DNA of 64,000 nucleotides from Cryptosporangium aurantiacum (GCF_900143005.1 NZ_FRCS01000006.1:434001-498000); one strand, 5' to 3'. Positions 36,957-59,327 are shown, numbered from the stretch's first letter. Notes: a model not told the origin generated them from the sequence alone. A program made the numbers and translations.

Positions 36957-37826
36957 TCAGAAAGCCGGTCGCTGCGGACGGTTCTTGACGTAGGCGCCTG
37001 CGTCGACCCGCATCTGCATTCCGGTGACGTAGCGCGACTCGTCGGAAACGAGGAACAGTGCCATCGCGGCGATGTCGGCGGGCTCGACGTAGCCCACCGG
37101 CATCGCGTTCATGGCCGGGAACGCACGCAGTGCGTCGTCGCGGGTCGGGTGTGCCAGATCCGGTCGGAACTGGCGGTACATCACGTCACTGTTGAGCATC
37201 TCGGTGTTGCAGTTGGTCGGATGGATCGCGTTGACCCGGATGCTGCGCGGCGCGAGGACCAGCGACAGGTCGTGCACGAACGAGGCGACGGTGCGCTTCG
37301 CGAGCGAGTAGCCGATACCACCGGGGCCGAGCGCGGGGTTGTCGGTCTTGCCGGACAGCAGCCCGGCGACCGACCCCGTGCAGATGATCGACCCGCCGTC
37401 GACCAGATATGGCAACGCGACGTCGACCGCGTTCACCACGCCGTTGAAGTCCACGCTCACCGCGTCGAGGAACGCCTGCCCGTCGCCGCGCGGACGGCCG
37501 AGCGGGCAGATCCCGGCCTGCGCGATCACCGCGTCGAGCCGCCCGCCCTGTTCGGCGACCGCCTCCGCGACCGCCTCCGCCAGGGTCCCCCGATCCCGCA
37601 CGTCCGCCTGGCGGACCGCGATCCGCCGACCGAGTTTCTCCACCAGGCGCACGGTCTCGTCGAGGTCCGCCCGCGACGCCAGCGGATACTCGTTGCTGGC
37701 GATGTCCTCGAGAACGTCTACCCCGACGATGTCGGCGCCTTCCTCGGCCAGTCGCACCGCGTGCGCCCTACCCTGGCCGCGAGCCACTCCCGTAATCAGT
37801 ACTACCTTGCCCGCGATGCGTCCCAT
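36957..37826 (-). CDS. Mycofactocin-type SDR family oxidoreductase
   Basis: 289 residues from ATG 37826 with AAGGAG upstream. The N-terminus GKVVLITGVARGQGRAHAVRL, the loop after GVDV, and the C-terminal YVTGMQMRVDAGAYVK place it with the mycofactocin-coupled SDRs, like the protein at 8935. Catalytic Ser in CTGSVAG and Tyr/Lys in YSLAK. Probably oxidises an alcohol intermediate and hands electrons to mycofactocin instead of free NAD. The biosynthetic genes for that cofactor are not in the window. Confidence 0.9.
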   Translation of the reverse strand: MGRIAGKVVLITGVARGQGRAHAVRLAEEGADIVGVDVLEDIASNEYPLASRADLDETVRLVEKLGRRIAVRQADVRDRGTLAEAVAEAVAEQGGRLDAVIAQAGICPLGRPRGDGQAFLDAVSVDFNGVVNAVDVALPYLVDGGSIICTGSVAGLLSGKTDNPALGPGGIGYSLAKRTVASFVHDLSLVLAPRSIRVNAIHPTNCNTEMLNSDVMYRQFRPDLAHPTRDDALRAFPAMNAMPVGYVEPADIAAMALFLVSDESRYVTGMQMRVDAGAYVKNRPQRPAF

Positions 37827-37855
37827 CCCGGCTCCTTCCTCGTCGAAGCAAGCGC

Positions 37856-38626
37856 TCAGGGCCGGTTTCCGCCCCGGGTCGCGGCGCCGCCGAGCACCCG
37901 CTGGGCGAACTCGCGGAACCGGTCCGAGGCGATCAAGCCCGATTGGATCCGGGCCGACTCCGCGAAGTGCGCGTCCGGTGGCCACGTGGCATCGCGGTCG
38001 AGTCGCACGTAGTGTCCGAGGACGTCCCGGGGCAGGGCGCCGAAGACGTTCGCCCGCTCGACGGCCGCCTCGCGCGCGGTGCCCTCGACGGCCGTGGCGA
38101 TTCCCAGACGGTCGCAGTCACCCGGTCCGATCCGATCGCCGGTCGAGAGCAGCTCCCAGAGCAGCCCTGGCCGGATCCGGCCGAGCAGTCCCACTCCACC
38201 GGTGCCGGCCACCAAGCCGGCGCGGGCCCAGCCCTGCTGCACCCAGCCCTTCTCGCCCACCAGCCGCACGTCACACGCGAGGGCCAGGTCCAGTCCGAGC
38301 CCGATGGCGGCCCCGTCGACGGCCGCGACCGTCGGCACCGGGCATTCCCTCAGCGCCCGGATCATCCCCTGGAACCGGCCGTACACGGTCTCGCGGATCT
38401 GCTCCTGGGTATGGGTACGCGACAATTCCGCGATGACGGGGAGGTGGCCGCCCGAACAGAAGACGCCCTCGCCGGTGAGGACGACGGCGCCCCGGGCACG
38501 TTCCCCGGCGTCGCGAACGGCGCCGGCCAGCTCGTCGGCCTCGTCGGGGCCGATCGCGTTGCGCGTCTCGGGCCAGGACAGCGTCACGACGACGGCCGCA
38601 GCCGACTCCTCGATGCGGATGCTCAT
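37856..38626 (-). CDS. Crotonase-fold protein lacking the catalytic glutamates
   Basis: 256 residues from ATG 38626. Oxyanion-hole parts are kept (FCSGGHLPVI; AAIGLGLDLALACD), but the first Glu position is Asp (LGLDLA) and the second (usual PE) reads QQGWARAG. So it is probably not a simple hydratase; isomerase, C-C cleaving or dehalogenase-like chemistry are known alternatives in the fold. First gene of the 38626-36088 operon and divergent from the TetR gene, sharing its operator-rich promoter. Confidence 0.88.
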   Translation of the reverse strand: MSIRIEESAAAVVVTLSWPETRNAIGPDEADELAGAVRDAGERARGAVVLTGEGVFCSGGHLPVIAELSRTHTQEQIRETVYGRFQGMIRALRECPVPTVAAVDGAAIGLGLDLALACDVRLVGEKGWVQQGWARAGLVAGTGGVGLLGRIRPGLLWELLSTGDRIGPGDCDRLGIATAVEGTAREAAVERANVFGALPRDVLGHYVRLDRDATWPPDAHFAESARIQSGLIASDRFREFAQRVLGGAATRGGNRP

Positions 38627-38660: not shown

Positions 38661-38702
38661 ATCGACGTCAGTTACTGACGCTCCGACCACATTCTGTACA
38701 GT
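38661..38702. promoter_or_regulatory. TetR promoter/operator: right-block motif overlapping -35 and -10
   Basis: CGTCAGTTACTGACG (38666-38680) is a perfect inverted repeat with a TTA centre. Its right arm CTGACG (38675-38680) can serve as -35; TACAGT (38697-38702) is a -10 after 16 bases, and lies in the palindrome CTGTACAG (38694-38701). Transcription would start at the ATG itself (38709). The region is shared with the divergent crotonase at 38626. Confidence 0.6.
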
Positions 38703-38708
38703 TGCGTC

Positions 38709-39419
38709 ATGACCGACTTGCAAGACGTTCCTGCCGAGGCTCGTACCTCGGGCCGACGACGTACGCTCCGTGACGAGCAGAAGGAAGCGACGCGGCGCAA
38801 GCTGCTCGACGCAGCCCGCGTGGTCTTCCAGGAACGGGGGTTCACCGCCGCGACCATCGACGACATCGTGGAGGGCGCGGGGGCAAGTCGCGGAACCTAT
38901 TACCTGTACTTCAAGAACAAGAGCGAGGTGATCGCCGAGCTTGCCGCCGAGTACCAGGCTGACGCCGAGCGCCTCCTGGCCTCCCTGACCGAGCTCACCG
39001 ATCCCACCGCGGCCGACCTCCGGAACTGGGTGCAGTCGTACGCGGACCTCGTGGCCACCCACCGCTCGACGATCCGGTCCTGGATCCAGGCGGAGAGCGC
39101 CGCGAAGGACCTGCGGACGGCAAGCGACGCTCAGATGAGCGGCTACCTCGACTCGCTCGCCGACTGGATCGGCGCCGTCCGGACGAGCCGTGGCCTCGCG
39201 GAGGACCCCGAGGTCACGCGCACCCGGGCCACGGCACTCCTGCTCCAGATCGAACGACTCTGCTTCTTCTGGCTGATCCGGGGCTGGGAGATGGACCGGA
39301 CGATCGTGGTCGACGTTCTGGCCGACGCCTGGCAGTCGGCCCTCGGCACGCCGGCCGAAGCCGCTCCGGCGAAGCCTTCCACGCGGAAGGCGACGAAGAA
39401 GAAGCGCGCCGCGAACTGA
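38709..39419 (+). CDS. TetR family transcriptional regulator (right block)
   Basis: 236 residues from ATG 38709. No ribosome site precedes it, and a -10 ends seven bases before the ATG, so a leaderless mRNA is likely. DNA-binding domain: RRKLLDAARVVFQERGFTAATIDDIVEGAGASRGTYYLYFKNKSEV. The ligand domain is helical and rich in aromatic residues. The C-terminus is a Lys/Arg-rich tail (STRKATKKKRAAN), unusual for the family and perhaps an extra DNA contact. Its promoter lies in the right-block palindromes, so it probably represses itself and the right-block operons, released by an acyl-CoA or pathway intermediate. Confidence 0.92.
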   Translation: MTDLQDVPAEARTSGRRRTLRDEQKEATRRKLLDAARVVFQERGFTAATIDDIVEGAGASRGTYYLYFKNKSEVIAELAAEYQADAERLLASLTELTDPTAADLRNWVQSYADLVATHRSTIRSWIQAESAAKDLRTASDAQMSGYLDSLADWIGAVRTSRGLAEDPEVTRTRATALLLQIERLCFFWLIRGWEMDRTIVVDVLADAWQSALGTPAEAAPAKPSTRKATKKKRAAN

Positions 39420-39434
39420 CGCCGGGTACGACAC

Positions 39435-41006
39435 CTAGATCGGCTCGCGTGCGGCGGGCTCCCCCACCACGGCGCTCTCCCGGGTGAGCAGGATTCCGGC
39501 CACCTCCCGGTCCCAGGTGCCGGGCGAGTTGCCGCGCTCCCGCAGTTCCGCTTTCCGGACCTTCATCGTCGGCGTCTTCGGCAGCTCGTCGACGACCTCC
39601 ACGAAGCGCGGCACCATGTGGTACGGCATCCGCGGCACGAGGAAGTGGATCAGCGCCTCGGGATCGAGGTCCTCGCCCGCGCGGGGCACGACAAAAACCT
39701 TGACCTCGTCGCCCCCGTAGCCGTCCGACGCCGCGACACACGCGACCTCCTCCACTGCCGGATACGCCGCTACCTCCCGCTCGACCTCGAAGCTGGAGAT
39801 GTTCTCGCCGCGGCGTCGCAGCGAGTCCTTGATCCGGTCGCTGAAGTACAGGTAACCGTCGGCGTCCATCACGAACTGGTCGCCGGTGTGGAACCAGCCG
39901 TTGCGCCATGCCCGGGCCGTGGCTTCGTGCAGGTTCAGATAGCCGTACGTGATCTCCCACGGATCGTCGGTACGCAACACCAGCTCGCCCGGAGTGCCGA
40001 CGGGCACCTCTTCGTCGTGTTCGTCGACGAGACGCAGCTCAGCGCCCGGTCGCACCCGGCCGGCCGTCCCGGGCCGGTCGATGTGCGGTCCGCGGACGGT
40101 CATGCCGGTGCCGACCTCGGTCATCCCGAACGCGGCGACCATCTCGCTCAGCCCGAATCGCCGCGCGAACGCGGCCGAGTCGGCCACCATCGGGACGGCC
40201 ATCACCAGGCGCAGCGGGTTGTCGGCGTCGTCCGGCTTCTCCGGCATCGCGTCGAGCACGGCCGCCATCGTGCCGACCAGCAGCGTCATCGTCGCCCCCG
40301 ACTCACGGACGACGTCGAGGAACTTCGATGCGCGGAAGCTGTCGCGCAACGCCACACAGCCGCCCCCGATCCAGGCGCCCATGCTGATCACCTGGCCTCC
40401 GCAGTGGAATAGCGGCGACGTGGTGAGCAGCACGTCATCGACGGTCGCCCGCCAGTCGTTGTGGAGCGCGGCGGCGAAGGAGTGCCGGTAGGTGGTGAGG
40501 ACGCCCTTGGCCGGTCCGGTCGTCCCCGAGGTGTAGTTGATCGTGTGCAGGTCCCACGGTGCCGGCGGGGGATCGAGGACGACGGGGTCGGCGGATCCGG
40601 TGGCCAGCACCGAGGAGTCGATCACGGTGGCGAGCCCGCCGATCTCCGCGAAGCGCGGCTCCAGCTCCACCGGTCCGATCACGCGTCTCAGCTCGGCGTC
40701 GCGCACCACGTGCTCGAGGGTCGTTCCGCGCAGTGCCGGGTTGATCGGCACCATCACCGCGCCGAGCGAGACCAGACCCCACCACGCCCGGAGCCAGTCC
40801 GCGCTGTTGGGCATCATGATGCCGATGCGATCGCCGCGCCGGACGCCGAGTCCGTGCAGCGCGTTGGCGGCCCGATAGGTCTCGATTTCGGCATCGGCCC
40901 AGGTCCACTTCTCGTCGCCCCCGAAGGTGACGCACAGGTTGTCCGGCACCCGGGCGGCGAAATAACGGACGAGCTCGGTGACGACGATGGGGACGGGTGT
41001 GCTCAT
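39435..41006 (-). CDS. Acyl-CoA synthetase (AMP-forming, CaiC/FadD-type)
   Basis: 523 residues; ATG 41006 with GGAGGG upstream, overlapping the stop of the preceding gene (ATGA). Motifs: NYTSGTTGPAKGVLTTY P-loop, AFGMTEVG, WFHTGDQ, DRIKDSLRRRGENISS hinge, and PTMKVRKAELR with the catalytic Lys. The hinge and layout resemble crotonobetaine/carnitine-CoA ligase-like enzymes. A close paralogue is at 59386. Coupled to the unknown protein at 41003, whose product or substrate it may activate. Confidence 0.93.
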   Translation of the reverse strand: MSTPVPIVVTELVRYFAARVPDNLCVTFGGDEKWTWADAEIETYRAANALHGLGVRRGDRIGIMMPNSADWLRAWWGLVSLGAVMVPINPALRGTTLEHVVRDAELRRVIGPVELEPRFAEIGGLATVIDSSVLATGSADPVVLDPPPAPWDLHTINYTSGTTGPAKGVLTTYRHSFAAALHNDWRATVDDVLLTTSPLFHCGGQVISMGAWIGGGCVALRDSFRASKFLDVVRESGATMTLLVGTMAAVLDAMPEKPDDADNPLRLVMAVPMVADSAAFARRFGLSEMVAAFGMTEVGTGMTVRGPHIDRPGTAGRVRPGAELRLVDEHDEEVPVGTPGELVLRTDDPWEITYGYLNLHEATARAWRNGWFHTGDQFVMDADGYLYFSDRIKDSLRRRGENISSFEVEREVAAYPAVEEVACVAASDGYGGDEVKVFVVPRAGEDLDPEALIHFLVPRMPYHMVPRFVEVVDELPKTPTMKVRKAELRERGNSPGTWDREVAGILLTRESAVVGEPAAREPI

Positions 41007-42046
41007 GCCGGTCCCTCCGTCTCGTCCCGGCCGACGACGCGCGGAAGGACCTCGGCGTACCCGTACGACGACACGATCTCCCGATCGGAGCCGAGTTCGC
41101 GGCAGGAGCCGAACATCCAGATGTAGCTAGGGTTGCGCGGCGAGGTCAGCGACGCCGGGTTCTCCGCCGTCCACTCCCAGGTCCGGGCACCGTCGGACCA
41201 CCGCACGCGCGCCGGTGTCCGATCCGCGTCGAGGTCGACCTCCGACCGCAGGCCGCGAAGCGCCGCGCTCGTTCCGTCGGTCGTCAGCTTTCCCACACCG
41301 GTGCCCTGCGCGTTCGCGTACAGCGCTGCGCCCTCCACACCGCCGTCGGCGTAGTGGGTCACGTAGATCATCCAGATGTCTTCGCAGCGCCGGGGGACGG
41401 GAAGCTCACGCCAGTCGAGCGAACCGTTGGACCACGCGAGCTCCCATCCGCCCGCGCCGACGACCGGGTCACCGAGGACGTGCCCGCTGATCTCGCAGAC
41501 GGTCGCGAGGTAGTACCAGTCGTGCTCGGGGTCGGGGTGGTACATCTGCATGGCGGACCCGGTCTGCACCATCGTCAGATCCAGGATTCCGTTCTCCACC
41601 CAGCGCGCGACCTTCCCCGGCTCGACGTCCAGGGAGAACCCACGATCCGGCTTGCCCCGCGAGCTCAGGAGCCAGCGATCGCCGACGACGTCGTTCGTCG
41701 TATAGCCGTAGAAGCTCCGCAGCGCTTCCGGCGCGTCCGCCGACAGGCCGCCCAGTGGGGTGACCGGAAGGTGCAAGCGCGGAGTCATCGACACGTGGTT
41801 GAAGCGGACCGGCATGTAGTAGTTGCCGGATTCACCGCGGAGCGCCCCGTACGTCGCCTGCCACAGCGGAGCGAGCCCGTACGGCGTCGGCCGGGAACGG
41901 TCGAGATCGGCCACGCCGGCGTCGAAGACACCGATCAGCGTGGTGTCTCCGTAATAGAACTTACGGCCCTCCGGCGCCCGGCCACGGGTGGCCGTACCGA
42001 GTGCCGGGGAAGGGGGTTGGCCTCGCAGGGCGTCCAGGGACGTCAC
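41003..42046 (-). CDS. Protein of unknown function, paralogue of 42204-43295
   Basis: 347 residues from GTG 42046 (GAGG five bases upstream; GTG 42052 also in frame). No signal peptide, membrane segment or recognised domain. Landmarks shared with the neighbour: FYYGDTTL, PYGLAPLWQATYG, RFNHVSMTPRLHL, FYGYTTNDV, MYHPDPE, the Trp-rich block AWSNGSLDWRELPVPRR, and TSPRNPSYIW. The beta-rich pattern with many Trp/Tyr suggests a lipocalin-like or CrtC/AttH-like barrel that binds a hydrophobic ligand, but this is a guess. Its stop overlaps the CoA ligase start. The promoter has three right-block motif copies. Confidence 0.75.
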   Translation of the reverse strand: MTSLDALRGQPPSPALGTATRGRAPEGRKFYYGDTTLIGVFDAGVADLDRSRPTPYGLAPLWQATYGALRGESGNYYMPVRFNHVSMTPRLHLPVTPLGGLSADAPEALRSFYGYTTNDVVGDRWLLSSRGKPDRGFSLDVEPGKVARWVENGILDLTMVQTGSAMQMYHPDPEHDWYYLATVCEISGHVLGDPVVGAGGWELAWSNGSLDWRELPVPRRCEDIWMIYVTHYADGGVEGAALYANAQGTGVGKLTTDGTSAALRGLRSEVDLDADRTPARVRWSDGARTWEWTAENPASLTSPRNPSYIWMFGSCRELGSDREIVSSYGYAEVLPRVVGRDETEGPA

Positions 42047-42075
42047 TGTCACCTCGCAACGTTGGAGACAACTAT

Positions 42076-42201
42076 GGTCACTCCGTCAGCGAATGTTTAC
42101 GCCGTCAGTGGAGTTGTCGTCACGGTACCCGCCGGCAGAGGCGCGGACAACGCTTAGCGACTAGTAAATGGGCATCTGATCATTCGCTGACGGCGCGTCA
42201 G
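42076..42201. promoter_or_regulatory. Three right-block motif copies, including a 12-bp inverted pair
   Basis: GGTCACTCCGTCAG (42076-42089) and GTTTACGCCGTCAG (42095-42108) are direct copies 19 bases apart. CTGACGGCGCGTCAG (42187-42201) is inverted and itself palindromic. CCGTCAGCGAAT (42083-42094) and ATTCGCTGACGG (42182-42193) are perfect inverted repeats 87 bases apart. All lie ahead of the gene at 42046. Confidence 0.6.
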
Positions 42202-42203
42202 TA

Positions 42204-43295
42204 TCAGTGCGGGCGGCCGGGTAGCTGGTAACCCATCGCCGTGTACGCGCGGGGAAGGGTCTCGCACCAGGCCCGTGCGCGGACCACCGGACGGTCGTCG
42301 TGTATCCGGCGGATCCCGCCGAGTTGCCACAGATAGCTGGGGTTGCGCGGCGAGGTGGTCGAGGCCGTCTCGGTCCGCACCTCCCATTCGTCGTCCCCGT
42401 GGCTCCACCGGATCCGGGCGGGCAGCCCGTCCGGCCGCCGGTCGAACTCGCTGCGCAGGCCGTGCAGCGCGGATGAACCCGACTCCGTCGCCACGTGGCC
42501 GGTACCGGTGCCGGCGCGGTTGAGGTAGAGGCTCGCGACCTCGTAGCCACCGTCGGCGTACTCGATCACGTAGAGCACCCAGTGCTCCTCCAGCCGCCGG
42601 GCGATCGGCATCTCTCGCCAGTCCAGGGCCCCGTTCGCCCAGGCCTGCTCGTAGCCGCCGACGCCGGAGACCTTCTCCCCGAGGATGGTGCCCTCCAGGA
42701 TCGAGACGACCCCGATGTAGTAGAAGGACTCGTCGGGATCCGGGTGGTACATCTGGAGGGCGGTGCCCGAGGGGTCGGACAGCCGCATGTCCAGGATGCC
42801 GCGTTCGGTCCAGTGGGCGTCGGCTCCGGGGACGGCCTCGAATCGCATGGCCCGGCTCGCCTTGCCCCGCGACGCGACGACCCACGCGTCGCCCTGGATG
42901 TCGCTGGAGGTGTAGCCGTAGAAGCTCGACCGCGCCTCGGCCACGTCCTCGGCCGGGCTTTCGCCGTCGGAGCGGGTCAGGTGCAGCCGCGGCGTCATCA
43001 TGACGTGGTTGAACCGCAGCACGTTGTAGTACAGCCCGGAGTCGCTCCGCACGATGCCGTACCACGCCTGGTAGAGCGGGTTGAGTCCGTAGGGCGGCGG
43101 CTGCAACCGGTCGAAGTCGGCCAGGGTGGGCCGGAATCCACCGCACAGCGTGACGTCACCGTAGAAGAACTTGCTCGACGACGGTGCTTCATCCGTCCGC
43201 GCCGTGCTGAGCGCCACCTGGTCGGAAAGTACGTTCGTCATCTGGCCATCCCGCAGCTCCCGGGGCGTTTCGCCCGTCGATGGTTCGTCATTCAC
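42204..43295 (-). CDS. Protein of unknown function, paralogue of 41003-42046
   Basis: 363 residues from GTG 43295, which overlaps the crotonase stop as GTGA (ATG 43241 is an alternative start). It shares with the neighbour FFYGDVTL, PYGLNPLYQAWYG, RFNHVMMTPRLHL, FYGYTSSDI, MYHPDPD, AWANGALDWREMPIARR and TSPRNPSYLW, so the two arose by duplication, yet they are in different transcription units. No signal peptide or known catalytic motif. A soluble ligand-binding barrel or an enzyme acting on a hydrophobic alcohol or alkene are possibilities; neither is shown. Confidence 0.75.
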   Translation of the reverse strand: MNDEPSTGETPRELRDGQMTNVLSDQVALSTARTDEAPSSSKFFYGDVTLCGGFRPTLADFDRLQPPPYGLNPLYQAWYGIVRSDSGLYYNVLRFNHVMMTPRLHLTRSDGESPAEDVAEARSSFYGYTSSDIQGDAWVVASRGKASRAMRFEAVPGADAHWTERGILDMRLSDPSGTALQMYHPDPDESFYYIGVVSILEGTILGEKVSGVGGYEQAWANGALDWREMPIARRLEEHWVLYVIEYADGGYEVASLYLNRAGTGTGHVATESGSSALHGLRSEFDRRPDGLPARIRWSHGDDEWEVRTETASTTSPRNPSYLWQLGGIRRIHDDRPVVRARAWCETLPRAYTAMGYQLPGRPH

Positions 43296-44074
43296 CGGCC
43301 CCGGAGAGCGGGAACCCGGTCCTCGCGCCGCGCCGCCCTGATCTCCTGGTAGTCGGCCGACGCGAAGCAGACCGCCTGCGCCAACGCCTCACGGTGCATC
43401 GCCCGCTCGTAGACCGCGGCGTCGATCTCGTCGAGTACTTCGCGCGCGAGTCGGATCGCCAGCGGCGAGCGTTGCGCGAGAGTTCGTGCGATCTCCTGGG
43501 CGCGGCCGTCGAGTTCCTCGGCCGGGACCACCCGGGAGACGACGCCGGCGGTCAGCGCTTCGGCCGCCGTGAGAACCCGCCCGGTCAGGACCATGTCCTT
43601 CGCCAGGCCGGGGCCGGCCAGCGCGCGCAGCCGCGCGGCACCGCCGGTGTCAGGGATGAGCCCGAAACCCACTTCGGGAAGGGCCATTCGCGCGTCCTCG
43701 GCCGCGATCCGGATGTCACAGTGCAGCGCCCGCTCGAACGAGCCACCGAGCACCCAGCCTTTCAGCGCGGCGACCACCGGAAACGGCATCGTCGACAGCA
43801 GCGAGATCGCCCGCTGAGCCGCGACGACGTGTTCCAGGTCGGTCTGCCCCCGCGCCCGTGTGCCCAGCGCGGTCGTATCCCGGCCGGAGGAGAACGACGG
43901 CCCCTCGCCGCGGAGCACGACCGCGCGTACGTCCGGTGTGCCGTGCAATCCGCGCAGCAGGTCGCCGAGGTGCGCAGCCGTCGGGTCGTCGACCGCGTTG
44001 TGCTTGTGGGGACGGTTGAAGCTGACGGTCGCGACCCCGTCCTCCACGTCGAGTAGCACGGTGTCTCCGGTCAT
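43292..44074 (-). CDS. Enoyl-CoA hydratase/isomerase (crotonase)
   Basis: 260 residues from ATG 44074 with GGAGG five bases upstream; a longer frame has no ribosome site. Motifs: FSSGRDTTAL, GWVLGGSFERALHCD (first Glu) and MALPEVGFGLIPDTGGAARL (second Glu). Both acidic residues are present, so hydratase or isomerase activity is likely. It heads a two-gene operon with the unknown protein at 42204 and is divergent from the crotonase at 44185, with the right-block motif between. Confidence 0.92.
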   Translation of the reverse strand: MTGDTVLLDVEDGVATVSFNRPHKHNAVDDPTAAHLGDLLRGLHGTPDVRAVVLRGEGPSFSSGRDTTALGTRARGQTDLEHVVAAQRAISLLSTMPFPVVAALKGWVLGGSFERALHCDIRIAAEDARMALPEVGFGLIPDTGGAARLRALAGPGLAKDMVLTGRVLTAAEALTAGVVSRVVPAEELDGRAQEIARTLAQRSPLAIRLAREVLDEIDAAVYERAMHREALAQAVCFASADYQEIRAARREDRVPALRGR

Positions 44075-44184: not shown

Positions 44185-44958
44185 GTGGGGGACTACGAGA
44201 CCATCCTGGTCGAGCTCTCCGATCACATCGCCACGGTCACGCTGAACCGGCCGGAGCGGCTGAACGCCTTCGACCAGACGATGTGCGACGAGTTCAGCCG
44301 GCTCTGGGCCTGGGTACGCACCACCGACGACGTCCACGTCGTCGTGCTGCGGGCAGCCGGCGACCGCGCGTTCTGCAGCGGGGTGGACCAGACGGACGGC
44401 GGGCTGCCGAAGGAGTCAAACCCGTGGAGCCAGCTCGACCCCGGACGACAGCTGGGACCGAAGGCCAACGACGTCTGGAAGCCGGTCGTGTGCGCGGTCC
44501 ACGGCATGTGCGCCGGCGGGGCGTTCTACTGGATCAACGAAGCCGACATCGTGATCTGCTCGGCTGACGCGACGTTCTTCGATCCGCACCTCACCTACGG
44601 GATGGTCTCGGCGCTGGAGCCGATGGGGCTCTCCCGCCGGATCCCGTACGGCGAGGCGATGCGCTGGGCGCTGCTCGGCCTGGACGAGCGCATGTCGGCG
44701 ACGCGCGCCCACGGCATCGGGCTGGTCAGTGAGGTGGTGCACCGCGACGACCTACACGGCAGGGCCGCCGATATCGCCGGCAAGATCGCGGCGAAACCGG
44801 CAGCCGCCGTCCAGGGCACGGTGCGGGCGGTATGGCAGGGCTTCGAGCTGAGCCCTCGGCAGGCACAAGCGATCGGGTACTCCTTCACGCAGTTGGGCAA
44901 TCCGATCGCCCGGGTGGGCTTCCGGGACGTTCCGCGGCCACAGTGGGAGTTGCGGTGA
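44185..44958 (+). CDS. Crotonase-fold protein lacking the catalytic glutamates
   Basis: 257 residues from GTG 44185 with AAAGGCGG upstream. FCSGVDQTDG and MCAGGAFYWINEADIV keep the oxyanion hole, but the two Glu positions read Tyr (GGAFYW) and His (FFDPHLTYGMV). The DPH-TYG-LEP pattern marks a subgroup of actinobacterial EchA proteins of unclear chemistry. Start of a plus-strand operon with the aldehyde dehydrogenase (GTGA overlap) and a small protein. Confidence 0.88.
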   Translation: MGDYETILVELSDHIATVTLNRPERLNAFDQTMCDEFSRLWAWVRTTDDVHVVVLRAAGDRAFCSGVDQTDGGLPKESNPWSQLDPGRQLGPKANDVWKPVVCAVHGMCAGGAFYWINEADIVICSADATFFDPHLTYGMVSALEPMGLSRRIPYGEAMRWALLGLDERMSATRAHGIGLVSEVVHRDDLHGRAADIAGKIAAKPAAAVQGTVRAVWQGFELSPRQAQAIGYSFTQLGNPIARVGFRDVPRPQWELR

Positions 44959-46427
44959 GCGGCACGGACCTGAGCTACCGCCTCTACATCGACGGCACCT
45001 GGACCGACGCCTCGGGCACCGAGGTCACGGAGGTGCTCGATCCGGCGACCGAGGAGGTCATCGGGCGGGTCCCGCAGGCGGACGCCACCGACGTCCGGCG
45101 AGCCGTCGCCGCTGCCCGCCGCGCGTTCGACGAGGGGCCGTGGCCCCGGACGGGTCCCCGCGAGCGCGGCGCCGTGCTGCTGCGCATGGCCGAGATCATG
45201 GAGCGCCGCACGCCCGAGCTGATCGAACTGACGATGCGCGAGGCCGGCAGCACCCGGTCGCTCGCCCGCGGCATGCAGGTCGGTGTCCCGGTCGCCCACC
45301 TGCGGGACATGGTCGAACGGGTGCTGCCGTCCTTCGCCTGGGAAACCCCGTTGCCGCCCTCGGTCGGGCGCGGAATCGGCCAGGGTGTGCTGCTCCGGGA
45401 GCCGTTCGGGGTCGCCGCGCTGATCTCGGCCTACAACTTCCCGTTCTTCCTCAACGTCCTGAAGCTCGCTCCGGCGCTGGCCGCGGGCTGCACCACGGTG
45501 CTCAAGCCGGCACCGACCACGCCGCTCGAGGCTTTCGTGCTCGCGGAGATCGGCGAAGAGGCCGGGCTCCCGGCCGGAGTGCTCAACGTGGTGACCGGGG
45601 ACATCGACGCCGGCCGCGAACTCACCACGAACCCGCAGGTGGACCTGGTCAGTTTCACCGGGTCGGACCTGGTAGGCAGGCAGGTCTACGAGCAAGCGGC
45701 GCCCACCCTGAAGAAGGTCGTCCTCGAGCTCGGTGGGAAATCCGCCGCGATCATCTGCGAGGACGCGGACCTCACCCGCGCCGTGGCCGACGTGGTGGGC
45801 GGCATCACCACGCACGCGGGGCAGGGCTGCGGTCTGCTCACCCGTACGCTCGTGCACCGGTCGCGTCACGACGAGCTGATCGAGCGGGTCACCCGCACCC
45901 TCGACCGGGTGGTGGTCGGCAACCCGTTCGACGAGGGCGTGCGGATGGGTCCGCTCATCTCGGCCGCCCAGCGGGCGAAGGTGGAGCAGCTCATCCGGTG
46001 CGGCCGGGAGGAGGGCGCCCGGGTGGCCTACGGCGGTGGCCGGCCCGCCGGGCTGGACCGCGGCTTCTTCCTCGAGCCGACGCTCTTCACTGGAGTCGAC
46101 AACACGATGAGCATCGCGCGGACGGAGTTCTTCGGCCCGGTCGGTGTCGTCATCCCCTTCGACGACGACGACGAGGCGGTGCACATCGCCAACGACAGCC
46201 CGTACGGGCTCGCGGGTTCGGTGTGGGCACACGACCCCGCCCGCGCCTACGCGCTCGCCCGGCGAATCCGGACCGGCCTGATCACGATCAACGGAGGCAG
46301 CGCGCTGACTCCTTACGCCGCCTTCGGCGGTTACAAGCAGAGCGGTCTCGGACGCGAGTGGGGCGAGCACGGGCTGTCCGAGTTCCTGCAGACCAAGTCG
46401 GTCACCTGGAGCGTCGCGACCGGCTGA
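44955..46427 (+). CDS. Aldehyde dehydrogenase
   Basis: 490 residues from GTG 44955 overlapping the crotonase stop (GTGA), with GGGAG upstream. EPFGVAALISAYNFPF, SFTGSDLVGRQ, catalytic Glu in LELGGKSAA, catalytic Cys in GQGCGLLTR, and AFGGYKQSGLGREWG at the C-terminus. NAD(P)-dependent oxidation of an aldehyde to an acid (or, for some relatives, to an acyl-CoA). Coupled translation with a crotonase suggests that the aldehyde arises within the pathway. Confidence 0.93.
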   Translation: MSGTDLSYRLYIDGTWTDASGTEVTEVLDPATEEVIGRVPQADATDVRRAVAAARRAFDEGPWPRTGPRERGAVLLRMAEIMERRTPELIELTMREAGSTRSLARGMQVGVPVAHLRDMVERVLPSFAWETPLPPSVGRGIGQGVLLREPFGVAALISAYNFPFFLNVLKLAPALAAGCTTVLKPAPTTPLEAFVLAEIGEEAGLPAGVLNVVTGDIDAGRELTTNPQVDLVSFTGSDLVGRQVYEQAAPTLKKVVLELGGKSAAIICEDADLTRAVADVVGGITTHAGQGCGLLTRTLVHRSRHDELIERVTRTLDRVVVGNPFDEGVRMGPLISAAQRAKVEQLIRCGREEGARVAYGGGRPAGLDRGFFLEPTLFTGVDNTMSIARTEFFGPVGVVIPFDDDDEAVHIANDSPYGLAGSVWAHDPARAYALARRIRTGLITINGGSALTPYAAFGGYKQSGLGREWGEHGLSEFLQTKSVTWSVATG

Positions 46428-46696: not shown

Positions 46697-46730
46697 GCCT
46701 ACGCCCGGACCGATCGGTCCGGGCGTAGGC
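46697..46730. terminator. Bidirectional hairpin terminator
   Basis: Perfect 17-bp inverted repeat (GCCTACGCCCGGACCGA and its complement) between the small gene ending at 46685 and the opposing gene ending at 46739. Confidence 0.78.
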
Positions 46731-47859: not shown

Positions 47860-49011
47860 CTAGCCCGGGAAGTTGTAGAGCCGGCGGGTGTTGGTCTCGA
47901 CCATCATCCGCACCTCGTCGTCCGGCACGTCCCGGAAGGCTTGCTCGGCGCGCTTGCGACTGTGCGGCCAGTGCGAGTCGGAGTGCGGGTAGTCACACTC
48001 CCAGGTGATGGTTTCCACGCCGATCCGGTGCCGCTGCTCCACGCCGAAGTCGTCGTCGATGAAGCAGCCGTGGAAATGCTTGCGGAACAGCTCCGACGGC
48101 CGCACGCGGGAGTCGATGTTCTGGTACCAGCGGTGCTTCTCCCAGACGTAGTCCGCCCGCTCCATCAGGTAGGGGATCCAGCCGATCCCCCCTTCGGACA
48201 GCCCGAACTTCAGCTCCGGGTGCTTGTGGAGCACGGGCGAGAACAGCAGGTCCGACGCCGCGTACATGGAGTTGCAGCCGAACAGCGTGATCATCACGGC
48301 CATCGGCGCCTCGGGTGCGGTCGTCGGCGCTTGGCCGGAACTGCCGAAGTGGATCGCCAGCGGCATCCCGGTCTGGGTGGCGGCCCGGAAGACGGGGTCC
48401 CAGTGGTCGGTGTGGAAGGACGGCAGGCCGCGCGGAACCGGATTCTCCGGAAAGCCGATCGCCTTCGCCCCCTTGGCGGCCGTCCGGTGGATCTCGGCGA
48501 CGCACGCGTCGACGTCCCAGAGCGGCAGGATGACAAGGGGAAGCAGCCGGTCCGGCGCGGCGGCGCACCACTCGTCGAGCACGTAGTCGTTGTAGGCGCG
48601 GACGCACGCGAGGCGCAGTTCCTCCGGACCGCGATGCAGGAACACCGTGCCCGCGAATCCGGGGAAGGACGGGAAGCACAACGCGCCCCACACCCCGTCG
48701 AGATCCATGTCGGCCAGCCGGGCTTTGGGGTCGTAACAGCCCGGGATCATCTCGTCGAAGCGCACCGGATCCACGCCGAACTGGTCCGGGCTCTTGCCCG
48801 CCACCGCGTTCAGTCCGATGGACGGATAACGCTGACCGGCGTAGTGCCAGACCTGCGCCGGTGGTGCGGACGGGTCTTCGACCGAGGGCTCCTCGACGAT
48901 TCGCGGACCCTCCGCGAGCCACTTGCGTGGCAGCCGGTCGGCCCAGACGCGCGGGTGCTCGACGAGATGGTCGTCGGTGGAGATCAGCTTCATGTCCGGC
49001 TGCAGCGGCAC
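47860..49011 (-). CDS. Metal-dependent amidohydrolase (Amidohydro_2 type)
   Basis: 383 residues from GTG 49011 with GAGGAGG upstream. Metal-binding landmarks: STDDHLVEHP (DxH) at the N-terminus, LAIHFGSSG for the barrel His, and WECDYPHSDS for the late Asp. Same family as the left-block protein at 24270, which also has the LADMDLDGV-like motif (LRMQDLDQEG). It sits between the P450 (9-base gap) and the binding-fold protein. It could open a ring after oxidation, or hydrolyse an ester or amide. Confidence 0.87.
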   Translation of the reverse strand: MPLQPDMKLISTDDHLVEHPRVWADRLPRKWLAEGPRIVEEPSVEDPSAPPAQVWHYAGQRYPSIGLNAVAGKSPDQFGVDPVRFDEMIPGCYDPKARLADMDLDGVWGALCFPSFPGFAGTVFLHRGPEELRLACVRAYNDYVLDEWCAAAPDRLLPLVILPLWDVDACVAEIHRTAAKGAKAIGFPENPVPRGLPSFHTDHWDPVFRAATQTGMPLAIHFGSSGQAPTTAPEAPMAVMITLFGCNSMYAASDLLFSPVLHKHPELKFGLSEGGIGWIPYLMERADYVWEKHRWYQNIDSRVRPSELFRKHFHGCFIDDDFGVEQRHRIGVETITWECDYPHSDSHWPHSRKRAEQAFRDVPDDEVRMMVETNTRRLYNFPG

Positions 49012-49020
49012 GGTTCCTCC

Positions 49021-50325
49021 TCACGCCACCAGGCTGGGTGCCCGGGTGGTGAACGTGATCTCGATGGGTTCGCCCGGCACCGCGGTCTGCCCGCGGTGGA
49101 TCCGGGGCGGGTTCTGGTTGACGGCGGTGAAGTCGAAGCGGCGGTAGACCTGGACCAGTAGCTCGCCCATCTCGACCTTGGCGAACGGCATTCCCAGGCA
49201 CACTCGGGGCCCGCCGGCGAACCCGATCAGGGCGTACCGGTGACGCCGGTGCTCGGCGCGCGGCTCCGCGAACCGGTCCGGATCGAACATGTCCGGGTCG
49301 GCGAACAGTTCCGGGAGCCGGTGGGTGGCCGCGGGTGAGAGCTGGATGAACGTTCCGGCGGGGATGGTGAATCCGGCGAACTCGACGTCCCGGGACACCG
49401 CCCGGCCGATGATCGGCAACGGAGGGTAGAGACGTTCGGTCTCCATCAGCACGTCGTTGAGGTACGGGCTGCGCCGGAGGATCCCCACGCTGGTCTCGTC
49501 CGGCAGCGTGTCGATCTCCTCCCGCACGCGCTGCGACTGCTCCGGATGTGCGCCGAGCAGCCACAGCAGGAACGACGAGACCGAGGCCGTCGTCTCGTGC
49601 CCGGCGAGCATCAGCACGAGGACCTGCGCGGCGATCGCCTCCGGGTCGAGCGGAGCGCCCGTCTCGTCTGCCGTGGTCGCCAGCACCTCGAGTACGTTGT
49701 CCTGCGTCCCACGGTCCCGGGCGCTCGCGATCAGCGGTCGCAGCATTCCCCGGACCCGCGCACCGGCTTCGCCGTCCATCCCGAAGGACGCGTCGACCAT
49801 CGGATCGGTGCCCGCCGCCATCATCCGCTCGTACTCGGTGGTGAACTCGCGCATGAGCCCCACGTCGGTGATCCCGCAGAACGCCCGCGCGGCGACCTCG
49901 AAGATCATGTGGCGCAGCGCGTCGTCCACGGCCACCGCGCGGTCGGCCCAGCCGTCGAGGTGCTTGGCGATGACCTCGCGCATCATCCCGAACTGCCGCA
50001 TGAGTGCACCGCCGGTGACCCCGGGCTGCATCGTTTTGCGCCAGCTGCGGTGGGGCGGACCGTCGAGCGCGACCAGCGCCTCCTCGCCCCACACCTTCCG
50101 GACGGGGGCGTACACCGGTCCCCACTGGAACGTGTCGACGTCCTTCAGGACGAGTTCGTTGGCCTCGGCTCCGATCAGGAAGACCATGCCGGGGTTGGCG
50201 TTCGGCACGTTCAGGCCGAACAGCGGACCGACAGTCTCGTACCCCCGCACGAAATGCGGTACGGGGTCCTCGGCGTACTCGGGCCGCCACTCGATCCGGG
50301 GCAACTCGGCGAGCTCCCTACCCAT
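49021..50325 (-). CDS. Cytochrome P450 monooxygenase
   Basis: 434 residues from ATG 50325 with AAAGGGA upstream. I-helix LMLAGHETTAS, ExxR in METERLYPP, meander PDMFDPDRF, heme-binding FAGGPRVCLGM. Not closely like the left-block P450. No ferredoxin or reductase is encoded in the right block, so it probably shares the left-block pair or others in the genome. First gene of the 50325-46739 operon; its promoter region holds the right-block motif. Confidence 0.94.
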   Translation of the reverse strand: MGRELAELPRIEWRPEYAEDPVPHFVRGYETVGPLFGLNVPNANPGMVFLIGAEANELVLKDVDTFQWGPVYAPVRKVWGEEALVALDGPPHRSWRKTMQPGVTGGALMRQFGMMREVIAKHLDGWADRAVAVDDALRHMIFEVAARAFCGITDVGLMREFTTEYERMMAAGTDPMVDASFGMDGEAGARVRGMLRPLIASARDRGTQDNVLEVLATTADETGAPLDPEAIAAQVLVLMLAGHETTASVSSFLLWLLGAHPEQSQRVREEIDTLPDETSVGILRRSPYLNDVLMETERLYPPLPIIGRAVSRDVEFAGFTIPAGTFIQLSPAATHRLPELFADPDMFDPDRFAEPRAEHRRHRYALIGFAGGPRVCLGMPFAKVEMGELLVQVYRRFDFTAVNQNPPRIHRGQTAVPGEPIEITFTTRAPSLVA

Positions 50326-55620: not shown

Positions 55621-55642
55621 GTCAGAGACTGACACGATGTCA
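55621..55642. promoter_or_regulatory. Right-block motif in a divergent promoter
   Basis: GTCAGAGACTGAC (55621-55633, same arm-N3-arm layout as 38666-38680) overlapping CTGACACGATGTCA (55629-55642), which contains the palindrome TGACA-CGA-TGTCA. Located between the SDR start at 55562 and the unknown gene at 55671. Confidence 0.58.
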
Positions 55643-55670: not shown

Positions 55671-56669
55671 ATGACCCGCAGCGATCGGCGCCCTGTCACC
55701 CGATCCGTCGGCTCCTTCGGTTTCCAGCCGGTCGTCGGGCTGGCCGCCCCGGACCCCGAGCGAGCGATTCGCAACGAGACCACGGTCATGGGGCTTCCCC
55801 TCGTCGGGCACTACCTCTATGGGGCGTTCGTCACCGAGGACGGATATCGCGCCGCTCCGCAGCGCCATATCCGCGACGAGGTCGCGGTCAGCCTCTTCTA
55901 CTACGAAGCCGACAAGCCGGATGCCGTGCTGGCCCACCGCGGATCGGCGAACCGTGCCCACCGCGGCATCTGCGAGGTCGGGCGCGACGCGGACGGCCGC
56001 TACGGCTGGTGGCATCCCGAGCCCGACCCGCGCTTCGTGTTCGTTGAGGACACCACATCGGCGCGGTGGCGCGACCGCGGCTTCGTCGAGGCCGAGGGCA
56101 CGCTGATCGGCGAGGTGATGCAGTACGCCATTCCGGACGCCGAGGAACCGCTGGTCTACACCTCACGGGTCTACCGCTGCCCCGAGGCCGTCGTGGACGG
56201 CCGGCCGGCCCGCGGTTACTTCTTCCACGACGAGGTCTACCTGCGCCAGGGGCACTCCTGGGTGGCCAGCCGTTATCTGCACGGTCTGGAGAGCGCGTGG
56301 ACCGCGTTCGTCACCGAGTTCGAGGACGGCGCCGTCCACGCCGGACACCTGATCTGGAGCAACGAGAACTTCCGCCTCGCGCTCATCCAGCGCACCGACG
56401 GTCCGCCGGTTCTGCAGACGGCCATCCCGGGTGAGGTGGAGCTGGACGATCAGGGCTACTACGCCCACGCACGGCACGACCTCGGCGACGACGGCGTCTG
56501 GGTCTGGCGACCGATCCACCCCGACGGCGGCCGGATGCCCCCCTCCCCGTTCGAGGACGGTCCCCGGTGGCGTGAGGGCCTGGTGACCCTCGAGGACGAG
56601 AAGCGCGCGGTCGTCGTCAACAACGCGTGGAGCGAGTCCTACCCGAAGTTCTTCGACCCGACCTCCTGA
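55671..56669 (+). CDS. Protein of unknown function, possibly distantly related to 41003 and 42204
   Basis: 332 residues from ATG 55671 with AGGAGG upstream. Soluble, beta-rich, with many Trp, Tyr and His. A central block YFFHDEVYLRQ ... SRYLHGLESAWTAFVTEF then EDGAVHAGHLIW has the same order of features as the Trp-rich block of the 41003/42204 proteins, but overall similarity is low and I call it only a possible relative. No catalytic motif recognised. It heads the operon with an aldehyde dehydrogenase and an alcohol dehydrogenase, so it may act on an alcohol or aldehyde stage. Confidence 0.7.
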   Translation: MTRSDRRPVTRSVGSFGFQPVVGLAAPDPERAIRNETTVMGLPLVGHYLYGAFVTEDGYRAAPQRHIRDEVAVSLFYYEADKPDAVLAHRGSANRAHRGICEVGRDADGRYGWWHPEPDPRFVFVEDTTSARWRDRGFVEAEGTLIGEVMQYAIPDAEEPLVYTSRVYRCPEAVVDGRPARGYFFHDEVYLRQGHSWVASRYLHGLESAWTAFVTEFEDGAVHAGHLIWSNENFRLALIQRTDGPPVLQTAIPGEVELDDQGYYAHARHDLGDDGVWVWRPIHPDGGRMPPSPFEDGPRWREGLVTLEDEKRAVVVNNAWSESYPKFFDPTS

Positions 56670-56722
56670 GCGTCTTCCGCTCGCGTCCCCGTTCGAGGAG
56701 AGCCTGGTTCAAAGGAGAGCCG

Positions 56723-58195
56723 ATGACCGCTACCCTGTCCCGCTCCGCCGCCGCCGAACGCTTCCGGGACCGGCCGGGCCGGCTGCTCATCGACGGTGAG
56801 CTCGTCGACGCCGCCCGCGGCGAGCGGTTCACCGTCATCGATCCCACCACCGAGGAGGAACTCGGCCAGGTCGCCAGGGCCGGCACCGAGGACGTCGACC
56901 GCGCCGTCACGGCCGCCCGGGCCGCCTTCGCCGACCGCCGGTGGAGCGGCCTGCCACGGGCCCGCCGCGAGGCGGTTCTCCACCGGCTGGCCGATCTGGT
57001 GGAAGGCGCCACTGCCGAGCTGGCCGCCCTCGACGTGCTCGAGAACGGCATGCCGCTCGCGTTCGCGCAGTACGAGATCGGCTCGGCCGTGGCGATGATC
57101 CGGTACTTCGCCGGGTGGCCGACGAAGGTGGAGAGCACCGTGCTCGCCACCGACGACCCGATCTTCGGTTACACCCGCCGGGAGCCGGTCGGCGTGTGCG
57201 CGGGCATCGCCCCGTGGAACGCTCCGGTGACCAATCCACTGCTGAAGATCGTCCCGGCACTGGCCTGCGGCAACACCGTGATCGCCAAGCCGGCTGAGCA
57301 GACACCCCTGACTGCCGTCCGGATCGCCGAACTGTGCCTGGAGGCCGGGATACCCCCGGGGGTGGTCAACGTCCTCCAGGGACCGGGCGACGTGGGCGCC
57401 GCGCTCGTCGCGCACCCCGGCGTCGACAAGATCGCCTTCACCGGCTCCACGGCGACCGGCAAGCTGATCCAGCGCGAGGCGGCCGCGACGTTGAAGCGGG
57501 TGACCCTGGAGCTGGGCGGGAAGAGCCCCAACATCCTCTTCGCCGACGCCGACCTCGAGGCGGCGATCCCCGGCGCGCTGATGGCCGTCTTCGCGAACTC
57601 CGGGCAGGTCTGCTTCGCCGGAACCCGGCTGTTCGTGGAACGCCCCATCCACGACGCCGTCGTCGAGGCGCTCGCGGCGGGCTCGGCGCAGATGGTGGTC
57701 GGCGACGGGTTCGATCCGGCGACGCAGCTCGGTCCGCTCGTGTCCGCCGCGCAGTTCGACCGCGTGCGGGGCTACATCGAGGCCGGTGTCGCGGGCGGGG
57801 CCACCCTCGCCCACGGCGGCGACCGGGTCGGCGACCGGGGGTACTTCGTGCGGCCGACCGTCTTCGCCGGCGCCGACAACACGATGCGCATCGCCCGCGA
57901 GGAGATCTTCGGCCCCGTCGTCACCGTGATCCCGTTCGACGACGAGTCCGAGGTCCTGCGACTGGCCGACGACACCAACTTCGGTCTCGGCGCGGGTGTC
58001 TGGACACGGGACCTCTCGCGTGCCCACCGGGTCGCGGCGTCGCTGCGGGCCGGAGTGGTCTGGGTCAACACCTACGGGGACCTCTCCGCCACCGTTCCGT
58101 TCGGTGGGTTCAAGCAGTCGGGGATCGGGCGGGAGTTCGGCACCGCCGCGCTCGACGCCTACACCGAGCACAAGAGCGTCCTGGTCAAGCTGTGA
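56723..58195 (+). CDS. Aldehyde dehydrogenase
   Basis: 490 residues from ATG 56723 with AAAGGAG four bases upstream. EPVGVCAGIAPWNAPV, AFTGSTATGK, catalytic Glu in LELGGKSPN, Cys in NSGQVCFAGTR, and PFGGFKQSGIGREFG near the C-terminus. A standard NAD-dependent ALDH. The next gene encodes the NDMA/mycofactocin-type alcohol dehydrogenase, so this pair can take an alcohol to an acid, ready for the CoA ligase at 59386. Confidence 0.94.
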   Translation: MTATLSRSAAAERFRDRPGRLLIDGELVDAARGERFTVIDPTTEEELGQVARAGTEDVDRAVTAARAAFADRRWSGLPRARREAVLHRLADLVEGATAELAALDVLENGMPLAFAQYEIGSAVAMIRYFAGWPTKVESTVLATDDPIFGYTRREPVGVCAGIAPWNAPVTNPLLKIVPALACGNTVIAKPAEQTPLTAVRIAELCLEAGIPPGVVNVLQGPGDVGAALVAHPGVDKIAFTGSTATGKLIQREAAATLKRVTLELGGKSPNILFADADLEAAIPGALMAVFANSGQVCFAGTRLFVERPIHDAVVEALAAGSAQMVVGDGFDPATQLGPLVSAAQFDRVRGYIEAGVAGGATLAHGGDRVGDRGYFVRPTVFAGADNTMRIAREEIFGPVVTVIPFDDESEVLRLADDTNFGLGAGVWTRDLSRAHRVAASLRAGVVWVNTYGDLSATVPFGGFKQSGIGREFGTAALDAYTEHKSVLVKL

Positions 58196-58217: not shown

Positions 58218-59327
58218 ATGAAGGTCGACGCCGCCGTCCTGTACGGCGTGGGTGAGCCGTACAAGATCGAGGAAATCGAGCTGGACGCGCCCCGCGAGCG
58301 CGAGGTGCTGGTCGAGCTGACCGCCTCCGGCCTGTGCCACTCCGACGACCACCTGGTCACCGGCGACGTCCCGCTGCCCGGACCGATGGTCGCCGGCCAC
58401 GAGGGTGCCGGAGTGGTGGTCGACGTCGGGTCGCAGGTGACCCGGGTGAAGCAGGGTGACCACGTCATCCTGCACCCGGTACCCAGCTGCGGGCAGTGCC
58501 GCTGGTGTGTGACCGGCCGGGCCAACCTGTGCGATCTGGGCGCGTTCGCGCTCACCGGATACGCCCCGGACGGCACCTACCGGCGCCACCTCAAGGGCGA
58601 GGACATCGGCGCCTTCTGCCAGCTGGGCACGTTCTCGCCCTACACGACGGTCTCGGAGACCCAGGTCGTCGCGATCGACGCGGACGTGCCGCTCGAGGTC
58701 GCGGCGCTGATCGGCTGCGGCGTGACGACCGGCGTCGGCGCCGCGACGAAGGTCGGCCGGGTACAGCCGGGCGACGTGGTGGTCGTGATCGGAGTGGGCG
58801 GTGTCGGCACCAGCGCGGTGCAGGGCGCCCGGATCGCGGGGGCGTCGACGATCGTGGCCGTGGAGCCGGGTGAGTACCGGCGACGGCGCGCCGCGGAGTT
58901 CGGTGCCACGCACTCCGCCGCGAGCGTCGAGGACGCCACCGGCCTGGTCCGCGACCTGACGCACGGTGTGATGGCGGACGTCGTCCTCATCACCGTGGGC
59001 GTGATGCACGGCGAGTTGCTCGGCCAGGCGCTCGCTCTCACCTCCAAGGGTGGCCGGTGCGTGATCACCTCGGTCGCCCCGCTCGCCGAGACGACCGCGG
59101 CGGTGTCACTGTTCGATTTCGCGATGTCGAACAAGCGCCTTCTCGGGCACGTCTACGGAGAGGCGAACCCGCAGGACGACTTCCGGCGGCTGGTGGATCT
59201 CTACCGCAGCGGCGCGCTGCGGCTGGACGAGATGATCACCCAGGAGTTCACGCTCGCGCAGATCAACGAGGGGTTCGCGGCCATGCACGCCGGCACCACG
59301 GTCCGCGGAGCGATTCGCTACCGCTGA
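58218..59327 (+). CDS. Zinc alcohol dehydrogenase, NDMA-dependent / mycofactocin-associated type
   Basis: 369 residues from ATG 58218 with GAGGGAG upstream. Catalytic zinc ligands in GLCHSDDH and GHEGAG; structural zinc loop CGQCRWCVTGRANLC; then GTYRRHLKGEDIGAFCQLGTFSPYTTV; NAD fold VIGVGGVGTSA. The structural-zinc loop and the block after it match the NDMA-dependent alcohol dehydrogenases (Rxyl_3153-type, TIGR03989), which hold NAD tightly and are reoxidised through mycofactocin. Oxidises a primary or secondary alcohol. Third mycofactocin-type enzyme in the window. Confidence 0.92.
   Translation: MKVDAAVLYGVGEPYKIEEIELDAPREREVLVELTASGLCHSDDHLVTGDVPLPGPMVAGHEGAGVVVDVGSQVTRVKQGDHVILHPVPSCGQCRWCVTGRANLCDLGAFALTGYAPDGTYRRHLKGEDIGAFCQLGTFSPYTTVSETQVVAIDADVPLEVAALIGCGVTTGVGAATKVGRVQPGDVVVVIGVGGVGTSAVQGARIAGASTIVAVEPGEYRRRRAAEFGATHSAASVEDATGLVRDLTHGVMADVVLITVGVMHGELLGQALALTSKGGRCVITSVAPLAETTAAVSLFDFAMSNKRLLGHVYGEANPQDDFRRLVDLYRSGALRLDEMITQEFTLAQINEGFAAMHAGTTVRGAIRYR

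Follow-up and report, generated by a model that had tools for sequence, protein, structure and literature searches.

Paralogous proteins with a predicted AttH/CrtC-type fold in a catabolic gene block of Cryptosporangium aurantiacum: candidate cofactor-free C-O lyases

Within a stretch of 64,000 nucleotides from Cryptosporangium aurantiacum (GCF_900143005.1, NZ_FRCS01000006.1:434001-498000; hereafter the window), two adjacent paralogous genes and a diverged third copy encode proteins of a so far unnamed family. We read these proteins, with a probability of roughly one half, as cofactor-free enzymes of an oxidative acyl-CoA catabolic pathway, namely C-O lyases or hydro-lyases whose site of action is a branched carbon, because both the predicted fold and the catabolic context support this assignment. 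Catalysis itself, as well as its direction, the leaving group, the substrate class and the identity of the active site, is inferred. New here are the third copy, a wide uncatalogued family, its relationship to 25-phosphosteroid lyase (25-PSL) and its association with phosphotransferases.

A paralogous gene pair and its family

The three family members of the window are as follows.

41003..42052, minus strand: paralogue A (P0001), 349 aa, GTG start, AttH/CrtC-fold family (predicted), 4-bp overlap with a CoA ligase gene
42204..43295, minus strand: paralogue B (P0002), 363 aa, GTG start, two-barrel AttH-like predicted fold
55671..56669, plus strand: third family member (P0003), 332 aa, diverged, 12 kb from the pair, overlapping an aldehyde dehydrogenase gene

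As the initial annotation had proposed, both genes of the pair are real open reading frames on the minus strand and paralogous: their products share 51% identity over 324 aa in BLASTP (E=1e-115, a single-comparison value), a similarity at the sequence level that far exceeds chance. All four motifs listed there (FxYGDxTL, RFNHVxMTPRLHL, MYHPDP, TSPRNPSYxW) were found in both proteins. The reading frame of paralogue A stands, while its start is now placed at 42052, the earlier position 42046 being an alternative GTG; in paralogue B, residues 1-34 are disordered and an alternative ATG lies near 43238. Translational coupling of each paralogue to an acyl-CoA gene is visible as 4-bp stop/start overlaps, with the TGA of paralogue A (41005-41003) on the ATG of the CoA ligase (41006-41004; ATGA), and the GTG of paralogue B (43295-43293) on the TGA of the crotonase (43294-43292; GTGA at 43292-43295).

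No family had been recognised for these proteins from sequence, and paralogues A and B indeed gave no Pfam or NCBIfam match at E<1; a PHROGs search gave no match either. The description as a pair was right about paralogy and too narrow in number: searching with profiles of distant homologues also brought up the third member at 55671-56669, which matches the family profile with E 5e-64. The genome of the window contains exactly these three members, and in three congeners the paralogue pair was absent and no syntenic block was found.

In a tree of 58 relatives, the pair forms a deep clade of its own (stem 1.63 changes per site, support 100) and the third member branches elsewhere; the pair therefore appears to have arisen by duplication within an isolated lineage. 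On this tree it is a deep orphan branch of the family, and it stays so because a pattern scan of the genome contigs with P0002 alone gave no match and no closer relatives. Relatives occur in Actinomycetota and Proteobacteria: genomic ones were found in Mycobacterium, Nocardia, Nocardioides, Pseudonocardia, Rhodococcus and one Gammaproteobacterium, and plasmid-borne ones, all labelled "hypothetical protein", in Mycobacterium, Paraburkholderia, Massilia and Caulobacter. The Caulobacter member (L138 8983-10017) is carried by a conjugative plasmid, and the trait should therefore be able to move between species.

Predicted fold and superfamily links

With genomic relatives in the input, confident AlphaFold models were obtained for paralogue B (pLDDT 84.7, pTM 0.82) and for the third member (pLDDT 91.6, pTM 0.90), and both models, the former covering 42204-43295, were searched by Foldseek against the PDB. 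With probability 1.00, both matched AttH NE1406, kievitone hydratase and pericyclases of the Fsa2/Phm7/CghA type (lipocalin-like Diels-Alderases), which all belong to one superfamily, whereas their other PDB matches had a probability of 0.28 or lower. The third member additionally matched 25-PSL (9fzn) at rank 5, again with probability 1.00. Two orthogonal lipocalin-like barrels per chain, the arrangement that defines membership of the AttH/CrtC/25-PSL superfamily, were thus indicated by Foldseek. The lipocalin-like CrtC/AttH barrel that had been put forward as one hypothesis is supported at the level of the predicted fold, with probability 1.00 to the AttH superfamily alone, and no confident match to a well-characterised unrelated enzyme family occurred. 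A search of a viral structure library returned one match, an uncharacterised Catovirus protein.

At the sequence level, profile-profile comparison of the family (alignment A9) scored 32.9 against a DUF7064-like and 34.9 against an AttH-like set, whereas 30 column shuffles reached at most 18.6 and 20.9; this points to a weak link to both sets that lies above the controls. The earlier suspicion of a DUF7064 relationship is consequently upheld in part: P0001-P0003 had no match in the Pfam search for DUF7064 (PF23212), and two distant relatives showed sub-threshold matches (L012, 19.7 bits; L017, 16.7 bits; gathering score 24.7; E 0.001-0.009). The DUF7064-like profile in turn matched 25-PSL 9fzn with E 6e-9, including the RDxSW acid motif; a PDB sequence-profile search with the family itself gave chance matches alone, none of them to 25-PSL. 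The window proteins showed no sequence match to the CrtC family profile (PF07143), and Pfam detected no linalool dehydratase-isomerase (Ldi) domain (PF18566) in P0001-P0003. Our literature search found no paper on DUF7064 and nothing on AttH-like proteins in terpene degradation. Elsewhere, the genome of the window encodes a CrtC-like PF07143 protein and a DUF7064 protein (G000:C9:184449 and G000:C7:222884).

A candidate catalytic acid

Numbered on P0002 (42204-43295), column 216 carries Asp or Glu in 40/40 sequences of alignment A5 and in 28/29 of alignment A9, with Glu in paralogues A and B and Asp in the third member. An aromatic residue follows three positions later in 39/40, and W239 is conserved in 38/40; the residues of P0002 in conserved columns are E216, W219, W239, Y193, R94 and D248. 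In the carotenoid hydratase RgCrtC, D268 is the essential proton donor and W283/W285 stabilise the cation (PMC4717167; PMC12402844). In the CrtC sequence used here (P0004), D268 lies within GYFDANFG and the Trp pair within YWTWGR. The AttH-like segment WQDHQWG..GWDWF aligns to CrtC in the register of D268 and the Trp pair, the DUF7064-like RDHSWG aligns with AttH (85%), and family column 216 aligns with the DUF7064-like Asp (RDHSW). This Asp motif (DHxW, RDxSW or YxD, at the end of the N-terminal barrel) obtains its register via the DUF7064-like set, while the direct CrtC alignment differs. Along this chain, column 216 is probably the counterpart of the CrtC proton donor. In the aligned stretch of 25-PSL, Asn replaces the motif Asp in 9g4c compared with 9fzn, which suggests that the depositors also singled out that Asp.

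An alternative equation of the invariant Y246-x-D248 with CrtC Y266-x-D268, based on like spelling, was dropped, as the real CrtC sequence and the AttH and DUF7064 sets favour E216. Judged from sequence, D248 more likely marks an Asp-Gly turn following the W239 strand.

Genomic context of the relatives

Clusters around the relatives, read as serving the breakdown of hydrophobic compounds, combine genes for cytochrome P450, aldehyde dehydrogenase (ALDH), CoA ligase, crotonase and short-chain dehydrogenase/reductase (SDR), in Actinomycetota and Proteobacteria alike. A census of neighbours (n=125) counted TetR 15 times, SDR 11, ALDH, CoA ligase and P450 6 each, beta-keto acid cleavage 5 and thiolase 4. 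The initial idea that the proteins act on, or carry, pathway intermediates agrees with this context in many relatives; the choice between enzyme and binding protein, and a terpenoid ligand, are matters of interpretation.

A phosphotransferase with a PEP-utiliser domain lies within 4 kb (<=4 kb) of 28/56 family genes and often overlaps them. Such open reading frames number 25 in 380 kb near family genes versus 2 in 460 kb of comparison loci, a figure to be read as indicative, since the comparison loci were not drawn at random from genomes and common ancestry links the family loci. Phosphotransferases of the APH type were found near two relatives. Fusions of about 866 aa between an NAD-epimerase/3beta-hydroxysteroid dehydrogenase-like part and a PEP-utiliser mobile domain, and PEP-utiliser proteins of 540 aa, recur beside family genes (L033-L046, L050, L054-L056).

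The association with phosphotransferases is stronger than that with Ldi. In Nocardia harenae (L047), the family gene is flanked by two Ldi genes, and in genome G071 a family gene follows an Ldi gene by 0.4 kb inside a 120-kb island, which also encodes close homologues of the window's amidohydrolase-like protein, ALDH, SDR and substrate-binding protein. The two Ldi (PF18566) genes of L047 (6905-8857 and 11412-13382) are accompanied by an AveC-like spirocyclase, a thioesterase and an acyl-CoA dehydrogenase. Seven family genes lie in the catabolic island of G071 (C1:3212000-3332000; L108-L113), together with two Ldi genes and ATP-binding cassette transporters of the branched-chain type.

The surrounding catabolic block

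The following features surround the family genes in the window.

36957..37937, minus strand: mycofactocin-coupled SDR (TIGR03971, above cut-off)
38667-38679: dyad GTCAGTTACTGAC, upstream of the TetR gene
38709..39419, plus strand: TetR-family regulator, EthR_C-like, candidate repressor of the block
39435..41006, minus strand: CoA ligase, AMP-binding; start overlaps the stop of paralogue A
42053..42203: gap between the paralogues, with GTCAG-type half-sites at 42085 and 42104 and dyad CTGACGGCGCGTCAG at 42187-42201
43292..44074, minus strand: crotonase; stop overlaps the start of paralogue B
44955..46427, plus strand: aldehyde dehydrogenase, Rv0768-like, below the curated cut-off
47860..49011, minus strand: amidohydrolase-like protein, class assigned by reading, no NCBIfam match
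49021..50325, minus strand: cytochrome P450
50356..50375: dyad CTGAC-N10-GTCAG, between the P450 (49021) and a thioesterase (50377)
55621..55633: dyad GTCAGAGACTGAC, upstream of the third member
56627..58195, plus strand: aldehyde dehydrogenase, coupled to the third member
58218..59327, plus strand: zinc-type alcohol dehydrogenase

The 64 kb contain four short-spacer GTCAG/CTGAC dyads, and intergenic DNA makes up 6.5% of the window. A shared regulon, and with it co-regulation of the block, is plausible because all four dyads are intergenic and confined to this block. From its sequence, the gap at 42053-42203 probably holds the promoter/operator that serves paralogue A together with the CoA ligase. 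The SDR at 36957-37937 suggests mycofactocin-dependent alcohol oxidation in the block, and homologues of the amidohydrolase-like protein adjoin family genes in L049 and in the G071 island. At 46697-46730, a perfect 17-bp inverted repeat between convergent genes is probably a bidirectional terminator.

Function and competing explanations

In the proposed mechanism, intracellular and cofactor-free proteins with the two-barrel fold of AttH, CrtC, kievitone hydratase and 25-PSL would make or break a C-O bond at a tertiary or allylic carbon of isoprenoid type. The substrate would sit in the cavity between the barrels, where the carboxylic acid of column 216 (Glu in paralogues A and B, Asp in P0003) may protonate an alkene or aid the loss of a leaving group, and conserved aromatic residues may stabilise positive charge. 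The leaving group would be water or, given a kinase, phosphate, and the alkene or alcohol product could pass on to the P450 or dehydrogenase, the CoA ligase and the crotonases of the same block.

Several observations weigh against this proposal. Whole-chain template modelling (TM) scores were just 0.40-0.49, and the packing of the barrels therefore differs somewhat from that of known members. The fold also serves Diels-Alderases, and no function has been assigned to AttH itself. Direct hhalign comparison of the family with CrtC was insignificant (3%) and placed the CrtC Asp near residue 231, not 216; the active-site assignment is hence probable and rests on the indirect alignment chain. A family gene adjoins Ldi at just 2 of about 20 Ldi loci, and co-occurrence of the two at the genome level is confined to one bacterial family and confounded by phylogeny, so that the Ldi link is real but limited. 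Finally, neither the window nor its genome showed a homologue of the PEP-domain phosphotransferases or of Ldi.

The main rival holds that the proteins are non-catalytic, lipocalin-like carriers, which pass hydrophobic intermediates between coupled enzymes. The predicted calycin-type double barrel, the proposal of NE1406 as a ligand-binding protein (PMC2954199), the translational coupling to CoA ligase and crotonase and the presence of several family copies per cluster would all suit such a role. However, the invariant polar residues R94, Y193, D248, R335 and E345 and the acid at 216 are more typical of catalysis, and the known functionally characterised members of the fold are enzymes; we consider carriers unlikely.

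Still smaller is the chance we give to kinase-coupled phospho-lyases in the window as well, where a kinase encoded elsewhere would phosphorylate a tertiary alcohol and the family member would then eliminate the phosphate. The Foldseek match to 25-PSL 9fzn, the 28/56 relatives near PEP-domain phosphotransferases and the two near APH-type ones speak for this reading, as does the kinase/lyase logic of the tandem formed by 25-hydroxysteroid kinase (25-HSK) and 25-PSL (PMC8449060). Yet the 64-kb window contains no kinase candidate, its genome gave no PEP-domain homologue, and the APH-type homologues that do exist on other contigs are distant (about 32%) and unlinked. Isomerases or cyclases on the same fold (double-bond shift, ring closure or a pericyclic step) appear similarly improbable: the structural neighbours Fsa2, Phm7 and CghA speak for such a role, but they are fungal biosynthetic enzymes, whereas the context here is degradative.

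Returning to C-O lyases, a broader and on balance doubtful extension would cast the family as the missing partner in a dehydration system of wide occurrence. A PEP-utiliser-domain phosphotransferase would activate isoprenoid alcohols of the tertiary or allylic kind, and the lyase of AttH/25-PSL fold encoded next to it would eliminate the phosphate, leaving an alkene. The paralogue pair of the window would then be a divergent, kinase-free branch for direct hydration or dehydration that uses Glu instead of Asp. Enzymes that add or remove water at unactivated isoprenoid carbons without a cofactor are rare and sought after in biocatalysis, and a large family unnamed by Pfam and NCBIfam appears to share its fold with the few such enzymes known. 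Mycobacteria, nocardiae, Nocardioides and some Proteobacteria carry this family in catabolic clusters, where it often adjoins an unexplained phosphotransferase, and this yields a testable proposal for an unassigned step in the breakdown of terpenoid or steroid-like compounds.

Comparison with known systems

For the third member, structure comparison ranked AttH NE1406 first (2ich; DUF2006/PF09410; E 2e-8), although identity is just 13%; NE1406 has been proposed as a ligand-binding protein (PMC2954199). Kievitone hydratase (7a0q, 7a0t) shares the predicted fold with probability 1.00 and differs in being fungal and secreted, with 8-9% identity; it hydrates a prenyl C=C bond, and no nucleotide cofactor motif was found in it (PMC5805349). 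The carotenoid 1,2-hydratase CrtC (PF07143) resembles the family in its presumed superfamily fold and in the acid at the chained-alignment position, whereas the window proteins lack a PF07143 match and no carotenoid genes were seen around them. DUF7064 proteins (PF23212), usually paired with DUF7065, are in register with the family by profile comparison, although the window proteins have no match and the relatives remain under the gathering score. In Castellaniella defragrans, a transposon mutant of a 1023-bp hypothetical gene (CDM25297) showed no growth on monoterpenes (PMC4109377).

25-PSL (9fzn, 9g2i, 9g4c) resembles the family in its predicted fold and in that many relatives adjoin a phosphotransferase. 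Unlike the 40 kDa phosphotransferase 25-HSK, the relatives' kinase is mostly of the PEP-utiliser type, and the window is without a kinase; the layout of phosphotransferase and family gene in the relatives nevertheless recalls the 25-HSK/25-PSL tandem of anaerobic sterol degradation (PMC8449060).

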